From Chloroflexi bacterium OLB13 (lineage in GTDB: Bacteria; Chloroflexota; Anaerolineae; Aggregatilineales; Phototrophicaceae): DNA of 64,000 nt. The stretch lies in contig JZRA01000068.1 of assembly GCA_001567485.1 (NCBI GenBank), positions 1-64,000 on the forward strand, written 5' to 3'. The stretch's first letter is position 1, and each line of letters opens with the position of its first letter. The notes below the pieces were generated by a model. That model searched no databases. It had not been told where the DNA came from and worked only from the letters and a program-made list of their open reading frames with translations. A program made the position numbers and the translations under genes. This document shows positions 1-32,714 of this stretch, piece after piece.

Positions 1-219
1 GTCCTGCGGCGGCGTGATCACGTACGGCGTCGGCGGCAGCGGAAGCAGCGTCGGCAGCGGCAGCGGCGTGCCGGGGAGCGGCGTCGCCTGCGGGGTGACC
101 GCTGTCGGCACGGGGGTCGGACAGACATAATATGCTGTCTGTAGGACCGCCGTCCCGCAGGCCAACATCGCTGAAACGACGGCCAATGCCGCAGTCAGGA
201 AACGCACGGTGCGTGTCAT
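1..219 (-). CDS. putative lipoprotein, 3' end outside window
   Basis: Reading the minus strand from the ATG at 217-219 gives an open frame to the window edge, about 73 codons without a stop. The N-terminus has a hydrophobic segment ending in M-L-A-C, a plausible lipobox with the lipidated Cys near residue 21. A Pro/Thr-rich stretch follows (repeats of TP, LP, PLP), as in extracellular linkers of Chloroflexota surface proteins. It starts 12 bases after the stop of the next minus-strand gene, with GAAGGAA just upstream of the ATG as ribosome binding site, so the two are probably co-transcribed. No function can be assigned because the folded part lies outside the window. Confidence 0.6.
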   Translation of the reverse strand, partial: MTRTVRFLTAALAVVSAMLACGTAVLQTAYYVCPTPVPTAVTPQATPLPGTPLPLPTLLPLPPTPYVITPPQD

Positions 220-231
220 TCGCGTTCCTTC

Positions 232-1447
232 CTACGGAATCAGCCCCGGCTGGTTGCCGGGTGCGAGCAAGTGCGTGAAGCGAACGTTTCCGCCGCGCCG
301 GCCGTTCGGAACCGACCACACTTTGCCGAAATACGGCACCGCGACCCGTACCGGTGTGTCGGCTACGAGCTGGTATCTGCGCGTAGCCGCTGACATCCGT
401 GAACGCCTGCGCGATCACCCGATTGGTGCCGGCTTCGACCACGCGCACGGGGATACCAGACACGCCTTCAGCCGGATCGACGGCGCGATTGCCGTTCTCG
501 TCGTAGGCAATGACCACGGAGACGATCATCTGCGCAGGCGGCATTGGCGTGATGATCGGCAGGACAACCTGCGGCGCGGACACCCGCTCGATGCGTGCTG
601 CGTCGCGCGGCTCGTCGGTCAGCGGTGGCATCGCAGGCGGCGCGCCGATGATCGTGTTGAGGCCGGCGCGGTACACCTGCACGGCGTCCAGCGCGATTGC
701 TGAACCTTCGCTGTCCGGATTGCGTTCGTCGGCGCTGCGCAGAGTAAGGACGTGCGGCCCCGCGCCGAGGCTGTACACCTGTGTACCGGGAAATGCGAGC
801 TCGGACGAGTACGCATCGACCGTATCGATGACCGCCCCGTCGACGATCACGTTGAATACGCCCATGTTGCGCGCGGCGACATACCGGATGCGCAGGCCCT
901 CGCCATCGAACACCATGCTGACGGCGCTGTCCGGTTCGTCTGAGCGGTGATACTGACCGCGGCTGGTACCGGCCTGCTGTCGCCGCTCCCACGGTGTGCT
1001 GTAGCGTATGTCCGGATGATCCGACTCGTAGCTGATCCATCCGGCGTAAGGCGGCGGCTGGTCGGTTGCATCCGGCAGCGGCTCGAACGGAAGCGGGGGC
1101 GCTGGCAGCACGATCGTTCCGGCCGGAAGCCCCGTGGCCGTCGGTGGGACGATGACGCCGGGCATGACCGCATGGATTTCGAGAACGCGTGTTGAAAGCG
1201 TGGGTGTCGGCGTTGCCGTGGACGTCGCGGTCTGCGTTGGCGTCGCGGTCGCCGTCCATGTGGCTGACGGTGTCGGTGTTCGGGCTGCGGTGGCGGTTTG
1301 CGTGGCTGTCCGGGATGGTGTCAGCGACGGCAGCACCATCAACGTAGGCAGCGGCTCGCTGGCCTTGACCTGCCGCTCAACGACAAAGAAGGCAACGATG
1401 CTCCATGCCATCAGGCATACAGCCGTCAACACCAGTAATCGTCGCAT
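232..1447 (-). CDS. secreted protein with T/P-rich linker and CBM-like domain (frameshifted)
   Basis: From the ATG at 1445-1447 the protein has one N-terminal membrane segment (about residues 4-23), then a long Thr/Pro/Ala-rich linker. A beta-rich domain at about 150-250 resembles carbohydrate-binding or galactose-binding-like folds (GLRIRY, VDAY, ALDAVQVYR). A Cna-B/SdrD-like segment follows, beginning DENGNRAVDPAEG. Near position 375-387 the frame changes: the first frame degenerates into Arg-rich sequence, while another frame continues sensibly (YQLVADTPVRVAVPYFG) to a TAG at 232-234. The locus is 1216 bases, one more than a multiple of three. It is probably exported and membrane-anchored by its N-terminus. 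The domain calls are by eye and tentative. Confidence 0.55.
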
Positions 1448-1556
1448 GTTCGCCTCCGCCGAGTTTCCTGCATCTCAGCGTAGCAACCGCAGCGATCCCA
1501 AGCTGACGAGAATTACAGTTCTGCGTTAGCGATTTTGCCAACTTGTCGTGACGATC

Positions 1557-2195
1557 TCAGTTGGACGGGAACGCGAAGCCTTCCTGAATGGCCATGCTGA
1601 TCAGGTGCTCGTTGGTCTGAACGCCGAAGCGCCGGCGCAGCTTCTGGCGCACGAAGTAAACGCGCCGCAGCGGCACGTCCATCTGCCGGGCGATGTCGCT
1701 GACATGCAAGCCTTGCGCGAGCAGCCGCAGCACGGTGCGGGCCTCCGCGTCGAGCTTCCAGTCGCGCAGCGGGGACTGCATCGCGGTCAGATACTCGGCG
1801 TTCGCGGTCGGCGAGAGGTAGGGCCATCCCCGCAGAGCCATATCGACGGCCATCGGCAGACAGGTATTCAGATCATCGCCGACCATCAGGTAGCCTTTCG
1901 CCCCGGCTGCTAGCAGGTCGCGAATCAACAATCCGTCGCTCGTTGTTCCCATGACGATGATGTGCGCAGGTGGCACAGCGTGTCGAAGCTGCTCGACCAG
2001 CGCCAGCGTGTCGATGAGCGGGTCAAAGCGGTCGCCCAAGAGGATGATAGCGGGCTGTACCGCCTTGGCTTGCGCGATCAGATCGCTTCCGTTTTCGGCC
2101 CTGCTGAGTGTGGTTCGCGCCTGCCGCAGGAGGACGGTTTCCGCGCCGATGACACTCAAGCTGTTGCTGTCTGCGACCAGGATTCGCGCTGACAT
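1557..2195 (-). CDS. NarL/LuxR-type response regulator with atypical receiver
   Basis: A protein of 212 residues. Residues 1-120 have the alternating pattern of a receiver domain, and about 145-205 form a LuxR-type helix-turn-helix (LDAEARTVLRLLAQGL then SDIARQMDVPLRRV). The receiver is unusual. The strand that normally ends in the phosphorylated Asp reads AIILLGDRFDP, where Gly sits at the usual Asp position and Asp comes one later, and the conserved Lys region reads YLMVGDD. It may therefore act without phosphorylation, or bind a ligand. No histidine kinase is adjacent. A palindrome lies about 80 bases upstream. It resembles two other regulators in this window (3905-4561 and 36420-37148). 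Confidence 0.85.
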   Translation of the reverse strand: MSARILVADSNSLSVIGAETVLLRQARTTLSRAENGSDLIAQAKAVQPAIILLGDRFDPLIDTLALVEQLRHAVPPAHIIVMGTTSDGLLIRDLLAAGAKGYLMVGDDLNTCLPMAVDMALRGWPYLSPTANAEYLTAMQSPLRDWKLDAEARTVLRLLAQGLHVSDIARQMDVPLRRVYFVRQKLRRRFGVQTNEHLISMAIQEGFAFPSN

Positions 2196-2273
2196 CGTTC
2201 TACCCTCGAATGATACGCTGTCCTCTCAGCATATCGCAGGTAAACCGGCGCGCGATGTCATGCTGTGACATTT

Positions 2274-2293
2274 GATGCACAAAGATTTGCATC
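2274..2293 (-). promoter_or_regulatory. operator-like palindrome upstream of the NarL-type regulator
   Basis: GATGCA, 8 bases, then TGCATC: a perfect 6-bp inverted repeat in an AT-rich spacer upstream of the regulator that starts at 2195. The right half belongs to an 11-mer (AGATTTGCATC) that recurs at 4755-4765, upstream of the second regulator. An autoregulatory operator is a reasonable guess but is not shown. Confidence 0.35.
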
Positions 2294-2355
2294 GGTGTGA
2301 AAATCACGAGACTGTAGATGTTGGATTAGCCGCTGCAATCAAGGCGTTCAAGCGG

Positions 2356-2745
2356 TCACGCGTTTGTGGCTGCCGGCGGCCTTAACGTCGCAGCGAGCAG
2401 CAGGAGCACTCCACCCGGCACGAACAGCAGACCAAAACCCCACGCCCCGACGATGGCCATGCCCACCGTAAAGAGCACCGCCATCCAACGCAGACGTCGT
2501 GCGAGTGCGGCATTGTCAATGCGCGTACTGACCAGCGCCATGATGCCCGCGACAATCATCAATGCCAGAAAGGCATACCCCACCAGGCTGCCGCCCTGCT
2601 GGAGATACGACTGCCGGTTACAGACCATGTCCTGACCCTGCGGCAGGCACGTGGCGAACACCGGAAGGAACAGGATACCGATCGCCAGAGCGATCTGCAT
2701 CAGCCCGCCAGCGACAGCAAATAGCGATCCGCGACTCTTGGGCAT
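2356..2745 (-). CDS. small four-helix membrane protein, function unknown
   Basis: A protein of 129 residues with four predicted hydrophobic segments (about 10-30, 52-70, 85-102 and 104-122) and short loops. Two Cys flank the first loop (TCLPQ and VCNRQ). The ATG at 2745 has a strong ribosome binding site (GGGGGAGG) and lies 12 bases after the stop of the upstream minus-strand ORF, so they form an operon. I recognise no family. It could be an integral membrane partner of the upstream Cys-containing protein. Confidence 0.65.
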   Translation of the reverse strand: MPKSRGSLFAVAGGLMQIALAIGILFLPVFATCLPQGQDMVCNRQSYLQQGGSLVGYAFLALMIVAGIMALVSTRIDNAALARRLRWMAVLFTVGMAIVGAWGFGLLFVPGGVLLLLAATLRPPAATNA

Positions 2746-2757
2746 TGCTGCCTCCCC

Positions 2758-3066
2758 CTAGTAACAGGCCATTGTCCAGTACCACAACAAGCTCCACGTC
2801 CGGTATTCCTGCGTGAATCGACAGCTTCCAGTCCCGTTTGCGTAGACGGTGGGGTAGTTCCACAGCTTGTTGTAATAGATGGTCCCGCTGCAGTCGAAGA
2901 GGCCTTTGTATTTGAACTCACCGGATTGAACGAACCCCACCCACGGCAGGCCGACACCGCTCGAAATCTGCATGTTGTTTTGAACTTTGAGCTTCCAGCC
3001 TTTGCCGCAGGACGGAGGCCGGTTCTCGCGATGCGTCAGCGTTCCGCCGCCCGTGCTGCAGCTCAC
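2758..3066 (-). CDS. Cys-containing exported-type protein, 5'-truncated
   Basis: The frame is open from about 3105 to the stop at 2758-2760, and its only possible start is GTG at 3066. The product (about 102 residues) is rich in Gly, Ser, Thr, Trp and Tyr with five Cys (SCST, PSCGKG, DCSG, SCRF, MACY), a composition usual for secreted proteins. No signal peptide remains. The frame is closed by a stop at 3106-3108, just where the opposite-strand TPR gene also loses its start. The real N-terminus appears to have been deleted. Family unknown. Confidence 0.45.
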   Translation of the reverse strand: MSCSTGGGTLTHRENRPPSCGKGWKLKVQNNMQISSGVGLPWVGFVQSGEFKYKGLFDCSGTIYYNKLWNYPTVYANGTGSCRFTQEYRTWSLLWYWTMACY

Positions 3067-27362: not shown

Positions 27363-27466
27363 CGGCGATGTGCGAACTTCGATTCACGGCGCGAATTGCC
27401 CGTGACCTTGGCCCGTGTTTGAACGTATACTGAGTCGTGACTTACGCAGCGAGCAAGGGTTACTAC

Positions 27467-29929
27467 GTGCGCAAGCTCCTCGTTCTCGTGTTGGCTGCGG
27501 TCGGCATCCTTGTCGGGTGTCAACCCCAGCAAGTTACTCCACCCGAAGACCCGATGAGTCTTCTGCAGCGTGCGGCAGATGCCGTGCGCAGCGCCCAAAC
27601 TTTCAGGCTTTATGTCGAACAGACGGGTGATGACTACGTCATTCCGATCGTACTGGGTGGCGGCGTTGTCAACGTCCAGTTCCGGTTCGCGCGCGCGCAG
27701 TATGTCCATCCTGACACACTGCAAGCGAGCGTTCGTATTGTCACCGAGTCGTTTCCGCGTATCGCGATGGATGTCGAGGTGTTCAGCATCTCGACCGACC
27801 AATGGTTCCGGGTATCGCAGCTCGATTGGGTGAATGAGGACTTCGCGCCCGGTTTCAACCCGGTGGCGCTGATTGCGGAAGACAGTGGTTTCCAAGCCGC
27901 GCTGACCAGCCTCGTTGACCTTGACTATCTGGGCCGAACCATCCTTGAAAATGGTATGCAGGTTCATCACCTGCGCGGCGTGGCGAGCGGGCCAAAGGTG
28001 AGCGCACTGGTGGTCGGCCTGCTCAACATACAGGGCCTGCTGCCGTTGGAGGTCTTTCTCGACGCGGACACCGGGTTCCCCGCGCGTCTTATCTTAGAGC
28101 TGCCCGGCACAGCGCCAACCGCGGCGGATGAGCCGACCCGCTGGACGATCAACGTCTATGACATCAATCAGCCGGTCGATGTTGTGCCGCCGGGTGGAGT
28201 TGACTGGACGGCGCCCGCGATTGTCGCGCCAGTGACCGCCACGGCCGGGCGTATCCCCTTCGAGGCGCTGGCGCAGCTCGGAATCCTTGCGCTGGTCATC
28301 GGCGCCGCGATTGCCGTCCCGGTGATGTTGTGGCCGCGCTTGCGCCCACAGATTGACGCCGGGAAGGCGCCTGCTGCCGTTCGGCCATGGTTGATCGTCG
28401 CGATCGTGAGTGTGCCGGTGTTCATCGGCGCGCTCGATCTGACCGTCGTGTCCGCGTTCCTGCCAGAACTCATCGTCGACCTCGAAATCCCGCTGCAAAC
28501 CGGCCTCGACGATGCCGCATGGATCGTCAGTGGCTATCTGCTGGCGTACGCGATCAGCATGACGTTCATGGGCCGGGTCAGCGACCTTGTTGGACGGCGG
28601 ATGGTGTATGTCATCTGCCTCGGCGTGTTCGCTGCCGGATCGATTCTGGTGGCGATGGCGCATCTCGGGCCGACCGACTTCTTTCACAGTCTGATGCTCC
28701 GTCTCGGACATGTGCCCGACCGGCCTGACATTACGCTCGCCGTGATTATCCTCGGCCGGATCGTGCAAGCGCTCGGCGCTGGGGCGCTCGTGCCGGTCAG
28801 TCTTGCGCTGGTCGCTGACGTGTTCCCGCCAATGCGACGTGCGAGGGCGTTAGGCGTGATCGGCGCGGTCGATACGCTCGGCTGGGTGCTTGGGCATCTG
28901 TACGGCGGGATCGCGGTACAGTTCATGCCGTGGCAAGGCTTGTTCTGGATCAATGTGCCGATCACGGCCGCCGCGCTGGTGCTGATGTTGGTGGCTCTGC
29001 GCGGCGTGCCGGATGTGCGCGAACGGAGCCGGTTTGACTATGTTGGCGCGTTCCTGATCGTGCTGGCGCTCGCCGGGCTGACGCTGGGACTCGGCGCGAA
29101 CATCGAGGTAGGCGTTGACGTATCCGGCTTCGAGGAGCTTTCGCCGCTGCCTGCTTATGCTGCGCCGGTGCTGCTGGGCGTAGCGCTGAGTTTCATCCTG
29201 TTCATCTTGGTCGAACGACGAGTGAAGTCTCCGCTGATCGACTTGAGGATGTTCCGGCGGCGGGCGCTCTCGGTCGGCCTGCTGGCGAATCTGTTCGTCG
29301 GATACGTCTTGTTCGTCGGCCTCGTGACGGTTCCGATCCTCGTCAATGTCCGGCTTGAAGGCACCTCGACGCTGCAGCAAACGGCGCTGGTCGTCGGGCT
29401 TATGCTGTGCGGCCTGACGGTGCCGATGGCGGCGGCGGCCTTCCCCGGCGGCTGGCTGAGCGAACGGATTGGCGCCCGAACGACGACAGTCGCGGGCTTG
29501 TTGATCGCGGCGTTCGGGTTCGTGTTGGTGTGGCGGACGTGGACGTACACGGTGTCCGATGCGCTGGTCGTGCTCGAAATGGTCATCATCGGCATCGGCA
29601 TCGGCTTAACGTTCTCGCCGATCAGCGCGTCGGTCATCGACACCGCCGACGAGCATCATCGCGGGGTGGCGTCGGCGCTGGTGATCGTGCTCAGGCTCGT
29701 CGGCATGACGCTCAGCGTATCGACCCTGACGGCGCTGGCCCTGACGCGCGTGAATACACTACTCTCGCAGCGTGTCGGGGTAGTGGAAGGACTGGAAGAC
29801 ATTAACGCCGCGGCGCAGATCACTGTCGAGGTCTTGGCGGAGGTCGGGTTGGTCGCGGCGGTGCTGTGCCTGATCGGCGCGGGTATCGCTATGCTGCTGC
29901 CGAACACGCACACAGGTAAGGAGCGCTAA
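27467..29929 (+). CDS. LprG-like lipoprotein fused to P55-like 14-TM MFS transporter
   Basis: GTG start at 27467 (AAGGG seven bases upstream) yields 820 residues. The lipoprotein signal (LVLAAVGILVGC, lipobox L-V-G-C) is followed by an LppX/LprAFG-type domain at about 25-245 (LLQRAADAVRSAQTFRLYVE, FFLDADTGFP-like strand LPLEVFLDADTGFPARL). Then come a linker helix (about 255-280) and a DHA2-type MFS with about 14 helices (GALDLTVVSAFLPEL, GYLLAYAISMTFMGRVSD, DLVGRRMVY). In mycobacteria LprG and the MFS protein Rv1410c/P55 are separate operon partners that export triacylglycerol-type lipids. Here one polypeptide carries both. Lipid export is an inference from that homology. Confidence 0.85.
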   Translation: MRKLLVLVLAAVGILVGCQPQQVTPPEDPMSLLQRAADAVRSAQTFRLYVEQTGDDYVIPIVLGGGVVNVQFRFARAQYVHPDTLQASVRIVTESFPRIAMDVEVFSISTDQWFRVSQLDWVNEDFAPGFNPVALIAEDSGFQAALTSLVDLDYLGRTILENGMQVHHLRGVASGPKVSALVVGLLNIQGLLPLEVFLDADTGFPARLILELPGTAPTAADEPTRWTINVYDINQPVDVVPPGGVDWTAPAIVAPVTATAGRIPFEALAQLGILALVIGAAIAVPVMLWPRLRPQIDAGKAPAAVRPWLIVAIVSVPVFIGALDLTVVSAFLPELIVDLEIPLQTGLDDAAWIVSGYLLAYAISMTFMGRVSDLVGRRMVYVICLGVFAAGSILVAMAHLGPTDFFHSLMLRLGHVPDRPDITLAVIILGRIVQALGAGALVPVSLALVADVFPPMRRARALGVIGAVDTLGWVLGHLYGGIAVQFMPWQGLFWINVPITAAALVLMLVALRGVPDVRERSRFDYVGAFLIVLALAGLTLGLGANIEVGVDVSGFEELSPLPAYAAPVLLGVALSFILFILVERRVKSPLIDLRMFRRRALSVGLLANLFVGYVLFVGLVTVPILVNVRLEGTSTLQQTALVVGLMLCGLTVPMAAAAFPGGWLSERIGARTTTVAGLLIAAFGFVLVWRTWTYTVSDALVVLEMVIIGIGIGLTFSPISASVIDTADEHHRGVASALVIVLRLVGMTLSVSTLTALALTRVNTLLSQRVGVVEGLEDINAAAQITVEVLAEVGLVAAVLCLIGAGIAMLLPNTHTGKER

Positions 29930-29996: not shown

Positions 29997-30068
29997 GCGG
30001 GTGTAATTCAGTGGTAGAATGTCTGCTTGCCATGCAGAATGTCACGGGTTCGAGTCCCGTCACCCGCT
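29997..30068 (+). tRNA. tRNA-Gly(GCC)
   Basis: Seventy-two bases with acceptor stem GCGGGTG with CACCCGC, anticodon GCC in the loop TTGCCAT and T loop GGTTCGAGTCC. The discriminator is T and CCA is not encoded. It decodes GGC/GGU. A dedicated promoter and terminator surround it, so it is a single-gene unit. Confidence 0.95.
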
Positions 30069-30072
30069 CAGC

Positions 30073-30400: not shown

Positions 30401-32596
30401 TCAACCTCCAGTGCTGCCTGCCGGGATGTTCAGCGGGACGTAAGGCCCCTGCGCCCACCATTCGGGGAACGGCTCGTACTCCGGCGCGCTGAAATACCAG
30501 TCGAAGATGCGCCGGACGATGGGCGCGCTGACCTGTGATCCTTCGAGCGACTGGCTGACCACGACAGCGACCGCGATCTCCGGGTCTTCGGCCGGGCCGT
30601 ACGCGACGAACCACGCGTTGGGATAACGTGCTGTTTGTGCCGTGCCGGTCTTACCGCATACCTGGTAGGGCGCGTTGTCGAACCGGATATAAGCCGTGCC
30701 GAGGTCTTTGTTCGTGGTCGTGCCGCACATCCCCGCCTGAATTTCTTCCAATACGCCGGGACGGAAGTCAATCGTGTTGAGGACTACCGGCTCGAAGGTC
30801 TGTGATACTGCCGCGCCGTCGAAGCCGCCAACCTGCTTGACGATTGAAGGCTTGTAGACCGTGCCACCGTTGGCGAGCGCGGCGACCGCCACCGCCATTT
30901 GAATCGGCGGGACGGACACGTTGCGCTGGCCGACGGCGATGCTGATGGCTTCGCTGGTGAAGCTCGGTGTGTCGAGATCGGCGGCGGCCTCAACCGCGCC
31001 GGTAAAGATGCCGTATGGCTCGCCGAGGCCCAGCATACGGGCGTATTCCGCCAGTTTGTTGCCCTCAGCGTTGTAGAGTTCCGCGCCATACTGGAAGAAG
31101 AACGGATTGCAGGATGCCATAATCGCCTGTGCCGGTGTGATGTCCCCGGCGGGTGGGAAGTCATCGGTCTCGCGCCAGTCCGGGCGGCTTTCGACATCGT
31201 CGCCGACGGGCCGGCCATCCCAGCGCAGCCCGCAGGAGAAGATATCGCCCGGATTGACGATGCCCTCGTTCAACACCGCTGTGGCCGTGATTAGCTTGTA
31301 CACCGATCCCGGCGTATACCGTGACTGTGTGGCATGGTTGATGAACGGTTGGCGCGTGTCGGCGCTGACCTGCTGAAGCAGCTCGACGCGGCGCGCCGGC
31401 TCAGGCGAGGTCGGGTCGAACAGCAGTGGGTCGAACAACGGAAAGCTGACCATCGCGAGGATTTCGCCGGTTTTGACATCCAATACGACCGCCGCGCCAT
31501 CGCCGGAAATCTGCGGGCTGCCCCACGTCGGATAGGCGAAGTCGTAGGCATCCGCCATCGCCTGTGCCACGACGAGCTGAAGTTCGCGGTCAATCGTCAT
31601 CTGCACCGGCGTCGGCGCGCTGCCGCCGATGCTGGAGAACTCGCGCAAGACTACGCCGCCGGGTTCGGTGATGCGCAAGGTGCGCTCAGGGGTGCCGGCC
31701 AGCGCGCGCTCGAACATACGCTCGACGCCGCCCTGACCGATCAAGTCGCCTGCGCTGTAGCCGAGCGCCTCATACTGCGCCTGCTGGTCAGCGGTGATTT
31801 GGCCGACGTGCCCGGCGACGTGTGACATGGCGTTGTTGCCATAGTAGGTGCGTGTTTCACGGTCAAGCGTGATGCTCACCCCGCACGTTGACGTCAGCGC
31901 GGCTTGATTGGCGTCGTAATCCTCGGCGTTCAGTTCGGCCAGATAGAAGATCGTCTCTGGAAAATTGGCGGCGAACAGGATGTCGAACGCGATGAACGGC
32001 CGGCGAGTCAGCCGCGAGATGAGCGCCTTGCAGCCCTGCTCATCGGTCATGTTTGCGCGCGCGGTGTACATCGTCACCACACGGCCGCGCCCCGCCACGA
32101 TTTGGCCGTTGCGGTCGTAGATGTTGGCGCGTGGGGCAAGGTCACCATCCGATGTCAGGGTGCCGGTTGATGGCAGTTCGGCGAAGATGTCCATGCTTGA
32201 CCACGCCACACCCCAACGACCGGCGTCGTTCACGAGGCGCATCGTCCGGCCGGTGTCGACGATCTGCCCGAACAAGCCGGATTCGATCGTCACGTCATAC
32301 GAGACGGCGGCCGTTAGCCCCTGAAGGTGGACGTTCCCAACCGTGTAGTCCACGCCTTCAAGCCCCATCGCCGTATTCGCCACGATGTAGCGATTGGTGA
32401 AGACTTCCTGCGGATACGTTTGCTGGCTTTGCCGGCTGAGCAGCGCCCACATCGCGGCGCTGTCGGCGCGATCCCATGCGGTCAGAAATGCTTCGACCGT
32501 CTGGCGCGCGCCGTCGTCTTGCGCGGAAAGCGGAACGACCAGCGCGGCCAGCAGCAGCACAGCGCCAATCGTTCGGAATGCACGGGCGATGCGCAT
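30401..32596 (-). CDS. class B penicillin-binding protein with NTF2-like N-terminal domain
   Basis: A peptidoglycan D,D-transpeptidase. From the start chosen at 32596 (GGAGG upstream) it has 731 residues: a signal/anchor (AVLLLAALVVPLSA), an NTF2-like MecA-N-type domain at about 28-145 (TVEAFLTAWDRADSAAMWAL), a dimerisation domain and the transpeptidase domain. Active-site motifs are SVYK at about 431, SCN at about 495 and KTG at about 649. The N-terminal domain is the kind seen in MecA and related PBPs. That does not imply beta-lactam resistance. The zinc-ribbon gene follows directly. Confidence 0.88.
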   Translation of the reverse strand: MRIARAFRTIGAVLLLAALVVPLSAQDDGARQTVEAFLTAWDRADSAAMWALLSRQSQQTYPQEVFTNRYIVANTAMGLEGVDYTVGNVHLQGLTAAVSYDVTIESGLFGQIVDTGRTMRLVNDAGRWGVAWSSMDIFAELPSTGTLTSDGDLAPRANIYDRNGQIVAGRGRVVTMYTARANMTDEQGCKALISRLTRRPFIAFDILFAANFPETIFYLAELNAEDYDANQAALTSTCGVSITLDRETRTYYGNNAMSHVAGHVGQITADQQAQYEALGYSAGDLIGQGGVERMFERALAGTPERTLRITEPGGVVLREFSSIGGSAPTPVQMTIDRELQLVVAQAMADAYDFAYPTWGSPQISGDGAAVVLDVKTGEILAMVSFPLFDPLLFDPTSPEPARRVELLQQVSADTRQPFINHATQSRYTPGSVYKLITATAVLNEGIVNPGDIFSCGLRWDGRPVGDDVESRPDWRETDDFPPAGDITPAQAIMASCNPFFFQYGAELYNAEGNKLAEYARMLGLGEPYGIFTGAVEAAADLDTPSFTSEAISIAVGQRNVSVPPIQMAVAVAALANGGTVYKPSIVKQVGGFDGAAVSQTFEPVVLNTIDFRPGVLEEIQAGMCGTTTNKDLGTAYIRFDNAPYQVCGKTGTAQTARYPNAWFVAYGPAEDPEIAVAVVVSQSLEGSQVSAPIVRRIFDWYFSAPEYEPFPEWWAQGPYVPLNIPAGSTGG

Positions 32597-32714
32597 GCAG
32601 CCTCCAAGTCGTGCGGACATCTTTAGCAACTATAGGATGTGCGTCCCGTCGAGTCCAGCCGTTTGTGATATGATTGAAGGGTGATTAGACAACGATTTCT
32701 GGGTGTTGTACCGC

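Follow-up and report, generated by a model that had tools for sequence, protein, structure and literature searches.

An LprG-like lipoprotein and a P55-like transporter in one reading frame of a Chloroflexota genome

In Chloroflexi bacterium OLB13, one open reading frame appears to hold both an LprG-like lipoprotein and a P55-like MFS transporter, which in mycobacteria are the two separate products of an operon. The frame lies in a stretch of 64,000 nucleotides (contig JZRA01000068.1, positions 1 to 64,000; here called the window). Do its two halves belong to these families, is the frame a genuine gene fusion, and how might an LprG tethered to its transporter work?

The fused frame and its two halves

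The features of the locus are as follows, in window positions.

27455–27459, + strand: AAGGG, putative Shine-Dalgarno-like sequence read from the letters, 7 nt before the GTG at 27467
27467–29929, + strand: fused coding sequence of 820 amino acids (LprG-like lipoprotein, linker transmembrane helix and P55-like MFS), from the frame scan, TAA stop included
27467–27520, + strand: lipoprotein signal peptide with lipobox LVGC and Cys18 at 27518–27520, from the sequence and the conservation of the cysteine in the aligned set
27548–28183, + strand: LppX_LprAFG domain, residues 28–239, from Pfam, the LprG profile match and the predicted fold
28184–28384, + strand: linker, residues 240–306, with coding-like codon usage
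28259–28327, + strand: extra transmembrane helix, residues 265–287 (hydrophobic core 271–289), from hydropathy and AF2
28385–29890, + strand: P55/Rv1410-like DHA2 MFS with 14 helices, residues 307–808, from profiles, structural alignment, AF2 and fold match
29651–29890, + strand: TM11 (729–769, a 41-residue helix) and TM12 (779–808), the counterpart of the Rv1410 periplasmic extension, from alignment and AF2
29997–30069, + strand: tRNA-Gly (gcc), downstream and outside the system, from a tRNA call
30401–32629, − strand: penicillin-binding protein with NTF2-like MecA_N, PBP dimerisation and transpeptidase domains, from a domain search

The frame runs from a GTG start to a TAA stop through 820 codons with no internal stop, and another in-frame GTG lies upstream, at 27437. 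Codon log-odds favor the same frame throughout (0.42 in the LprG part, 0.38 in the linker, and 0.53 in the MFS part), with the two alternative frames negative in all three parts; the junction therefore reads as coding. The uninterrupted frame of the original prediction is thus borne out, as is its intact lipobox, whose cysteine is at least 90% conserved across the aligned set. The ribosome binding site, which had been called good, is better described as usable, since AAGGG falls short of a full Shine-Dalgarno sequence.

The N-terminal half matches LppX_LprAFG (PF07161) with 26.2 bits when the whole protein is searched and 30.7 bits when the domain is searched alone, above the gathering cut-off of 24, and 35 of the 36 aligned relatives match as well. 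A profile built from 36 Chloroflexota LprG-like domains finds Mycobacterium tuberculosis LprG (3mh8) at E 8e-18, followed by LprF (6e-11) and LppX (3e-5). The domain was modeled at a pLDDT of 93, and the model superimposes on LprG 3mh8 with a Z score of 21.5 (193 residues, rmsd 3.0); the first structure beyond the LprG, LprF, and LppX group reaches only 11.1. Profile and predicted fold thus support the LprG-like assignment made earlier, with LprG the closest among solved structures. Structures of LprG exist in triacylglycerol (TAG)-bound and PIM-bound forms.

The C-terminal half matches MFS_1 over residues 318–749 (172 bits). Its best relative in the PDB is MHAS2168 (8pnl), a homolog of Rv1410, both by sequence (E 8e-52, with EfpA next at 3e-21) and by fold (Z 41.1, with the next at 36.0), and the two are 34% identical over the structural alignment. 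The drug-efflux models EmrB, TcmA, and FexA match this half too, all below their cut-offs. Fourteen transmembrane helices are predicted by AF2, including the linker helices A (525–551) and B (565–585), in agreement with the 14-helix DHA2 transporter first proposed. As we read it, the alignment pairs the proton-coupling residues D35, R118, Q121, N184, and R426 of MHAS2168 with D324, R431, Q434, N496, and R743 of the fusion, and across 46 sequences these five positions vary little or not at all. Two of them, D324 and R431, never change among the 46 and supply the pair between the TM1 Asp and the TM4 Arg (D22 and R108 in Rv1410). The ion lock of Rv1410 (E147–R417) is incomplete, with R743 kept and T470 at the Glu position, which is E157 in MHAS2168; the neighboring Asp469 is invariant, yet is not an exact match. 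The loop between TM11 and TM12 is ~11 residues shorter than that of MHAS2168, and the model has no predicted strands at 692–697, where a TM9–TM10 β-hairpin was looked for, and ~10 residues fewer there than 8pnl. Sequence and model support a P55-like transporter with MHAS2168 as its closest solved relative; because the ion-lock Glu is replaced, we call it P55-like and not a strict Rv1410 ortholog.

A linker helix and the topology of the chain

After cleavage, a lipoprotein is on the outer side of the membrane, and an MFS transporter begins inside. A fusion of the two therefore needs an odd number of extra crossings between its halves. The linker of the window supplies a candidate for one, a helix that was absent from the original prediction and that raises the number of transmembrane helices in the fusion to 15, the lipid anchor not counted. 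The helix is flanked by four K/R residues toward the MFS and by one toward LprG. G013, one of two other genomes with a fused frame, has a linker of the same design, with one helix and positive charge on its inner side. In both proteins, a single helix with a positive-inside charge bias fits an N-out/C-in orientation, which would resolve the clash in topology. The fusion in the other genome, G016 (L055/L212, contig C244), has two strongly hydrophobic segments at linker residues ~285–342. By parity, its MFS N-terminus would end on the wrong side, and this counts against the topology model.

A hydrophobic linker segment is present in all three fusions (19-residue means of 2.2–2.5), and none occurs in the LprG tails of 92 of 92 unfused pairs, in which the highest 19-residue mean is 1.23. 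The junction in the window amounts to ~45 extra codons, the transmembrane helix included. A Pfam search of this linker gave no match, that of the G016 linker gave only sub-threshold two-TM families, and a DNA search of the window's own genome for a source of the linker returned only short, weak matches.

For the alignments of fusions with relatives, in-frame operon pairs were read through; a mixed MAFFT set misplaced LprG rows onto the MFS. With an input alignment built with such read-through pairs, AF2 modeled the whole chain at a pLDDT of 87.7 and a pTM of 0.86, and the extra linker helix at a pLDDT of only ~50. The pTM is higher than would be expected from random placement of the LprG domain, and bears on docking only indirectly.

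Fused and unfused genes among relatives

Of the 154 genomes of the order, 129 gave an LprG-like match at E ≤ 0.001. The full-length query matched 135 of the 154 at E ≤ 1e-20, a figure to which weak hits on other MFS proteins contribute. Among classifiable pairs, the order contributes 84 genomes and other groups eight in which lprG and p55 are adjacent but unfused, with the lipoprotein first; in 34 of these 92 pairs the genes overlap by 4 nt. In some genomes of the family (e.g., genus code g17), an LprG-like lipoprotein lacks an adjoining P55 gene (L163, L168, and L166); its neighbors are glycosyltransferase and polyprenyl synthase genes in L163 and recA in L168. A plasmid of Tsukamurella tyrosinosolvens (L283, 698–3057) carries adjacent, unfused genes for an LppX_LprAFG lipoprotein and an MFS protein.

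Among the genomes surveyed, the single-frame fusion was found in only three (the window's, G016, and G013), each represented by one MAG, and in the order unfused neighbors are the rule. Single-sequence searches of a class sample (396 genomes) and a phylum sample (400 genomes) found no further fusion. Among 80 loci taken from named records of genomes, most labeled Anaerolineae, Anaerolineales, Aggregatilineales, or Chloroflexi and a few labeled otherwise (Bacteroidetes and Pleurocapsa, for instance), no fusion turned up except that of the G016 record. No match in a TBLASTN search of plasmids covered 80% of the query, a result with little bearing on chromosomes.

The tree of MFS sequences joins the window's transporter half to those of two unfused genomes from its genus (SH-aLRT 99). 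Its branches require the fusion state to change three times. In the LprG tree the window again falls with its genus, at a support of only 68. A single origin of all three fusions was rejected (p-AU 5e-59), as was a clade of the window and G016 fusions (p-AU 6e-90); the G013 sequence sits on a long branch. The trees suggest that the fusions arose separately at least two times and probably three times. One fusion followed by many splits would be compatible with the counts alone, yet is the less simple account.

Mechanism, alternatives and known systems

Sequence and prediction show a chain that opens with a lipoprotein signal, continues through a domain of LprG fold and a single added linker helix, and ends in a DHA2 transporter of the Rv1410 type. 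On this basis, we think it probable, though well short of assured, that a genuine gene fusion has made a conserved two-gene lprG–p55 unit into one protein, a proton-driven exporter of a lipid or amphiphile with a tethered LprG acceptor. With the lipid anchor fixing its N-terminus and the added helix its C-terminus, the LprG domain would be on the outer face of the membrane, directly above the mouth of the transporter. Proton exchange would let the MFS half draw a lipid or amphiphile out of the membrane, and this cargo would reach the LprG pocket by way of the TM11/TM12 extension. The tethered LprG would act as a built-in acceptor or exit chamber, which may release cargo at the envelope surface or pass it on to a further acceptor. 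Being tethered at both ends, LprG in this lineage could not shuttle over long distances. The argument from fusion to a direct functional link between the halves, put in the original prediction as a Rosetta-stone case for a physical link, gains strength from three apparently independent fusions and a conserved gene pair.

Two overlapping genes might also have become joined by neutral accident, with the fusion working exactly like the separate pair. Most family members remain unfused, and precise pairing is unimportant in mycobacteria, where LprG and Rv1410 partners from different species are interchangeable and no strong physical binding between the two was found, so that tight pairing is not required there (PMC10576003), which also counts against the preferred reading. 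However, the separate fusions each acquired a new membrane segment, which suggests, from three cases, that the tether is tolerated or favored. We regard a purely neutral join as doubtful, if still a serious contender. An unlikely reading, and one that concerns the cargo, is that the protein is an efflux pump for drugs or small amphiphiles, with the LprG domain trapping hydrophobic drugs or stabilizing the pump and with membrane lipid not the physiological cargo. The sub-threshold matches to EmrB, TcmA, and FexA fit such a pump, Rv1410 was initially described as one for drugs (PMC10576003), and the mycobacterial TAG route is not evident here, with no WS/DGAT found in a search whose control genomes were equally silent. 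Yet MHAS2168, a homolog of a TAG transporter, clearly outscores every other match, and LprG, the match of the N-terminal domain, has been solved with TAG and with PIM bound.

It is improbable that the continuous frame yields two proteins through linker proteolysis or an internal start, leaving the fusion without mechanistic meaning. Although the low linker pLDDT and near-start codons around 28322–28330 would suit a split, no Shine-Dalgarno-like sequence was seen by eye ahead of those codons, and the added helix, purposeless in a split product, is in every fusion. An assembly or base-call error that erased a stop between two ordinary genes is very hard to credit: the window's species has a lone MAG and its genus mates are unfused, but far more than a stop has changed, with ~45 in-frame codons of coding-like usage and a transmembrane helix added, a similar design in G013, and G016 fused as well.

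The original prediction had carried over the mycobacterial movement of TAG-type lipids toward the outer envelope, and this part is not supported as stated. Omp85 was not found in the window's genome in a search that was positive in seven control genomes, so an outer membrane is unlikely in this host. WS/DGAT likewise gave no match, although the silent controls mean that its absence is not proof, and the ion-lock Glu is not conserved. With neither Omp85 nor WS/DGAT matched, TAG delivery to an outer membrane is not a fair default here, and the cargo may be another lipid, a glycolipid, or an amphiphile. A stricter version, plausible to us but not one that we would yet adopt, is that in this lineage, where no outer membrane is detectable, LprG would be only a tethered exit chamber, 1:1 with its transporter; the family would then need no free, shuttling LprG for lipid hand-off, and the cargo would be some surface lipid or glycolipid distinct from mycomembrane TAG. 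The flanking genes, a D-Tyr-tRNA deacylase upstream and the tRNA-Gly and penicillin-binding protein downstream, do not point to a cargo.

The published model of LprG and Rv1410 has only a brief contact between them and leaves open whether LprG departs from the inner membrane for delivery (PMC10576003). A natural single chain in which both ends of LprG are held at the membrane bears directly on this question. Structural studies of lipid transfer would also gain a complex of fixed 1:1 composition, and the proposed hand-off becomes directly testable. The widespread lprG–p55 pair in a phylum without mycolic acids points to a system older or more general than the mycomembrane. The open-licence literature searched contained no paper mentioning LprG with Chloroflexota and no description of a single-chain LprG–P55 or of the pair beyond the mycomembrane; earlier mention elsewhere is possible.

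Among known systems, the mycobacterial operon of LprG (Rv1411c) and Rv1410c/P55, with MHAS2167/MHAS2168 of M. hassiacum, shares with the fusion the lipobox, the LppX_LprAFG domain, the 14-helix DHA2 MFS, the long TM11 and TM12, the D/R/Q/N set, the cavity arginine, and the lipoprotein-first order. The fusion differs in being one chain instead of two with an added linker helix, in having Thr for the ion-lock Glu beside an invariant Asp, in a model without sign of the TM9–TM10 β-hairpin and with the shorter TM11/TM12 loop, and in a host genome lacking Omp85 and a WS/DGAT match (the latter with silent controls). The unfused Chloroflexota pairs (84 in the same order and eight elsewhere) have halves orthologous to those of the fusion, and the window's halves cluster with those of its genus mates; unlike the fusion, they are two genes, often with a 4-nt overlap, and their LprG tail is short and polar with no membrane segment.

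A further group couples a related, P55-like MFS to a large C-terminal, DUF3352-like domain (~1100 amino acids; L131, L132, L133, L135, and possibly L134). Their MFS parts are 35–41% identical to the window's MFS half (41% in L131, 1518–4895, + strand; L134 lies at 3–3059, − strand). Past the last MFS helix, these frames of ~1000–1140 codons have a hydrophobic segment and then the large domain, which in L131 scores 22.7 bits against DUF3352 (below the cut-off of 26.8) and in L134 has no Pfam match; the large domain apparently sits behind an added membrane helix. Compared with the fusion, the domain is another one and at the opposite end, and no such protein was found in the window's genome. LolCDE–LolA and LptB2FG resemble the mechanism proposed for the fusion in that a carrier domain receives its lipid or lipoprotein from an inner-membrane extractor, and the folds of LprG and LolA are related (Z up to about 9–11). 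Unlike the fusion, these systems are ATP-driven ABC transporters whose carrier is a separate, soluble protein and whose destination belongs to a diderm envelope.
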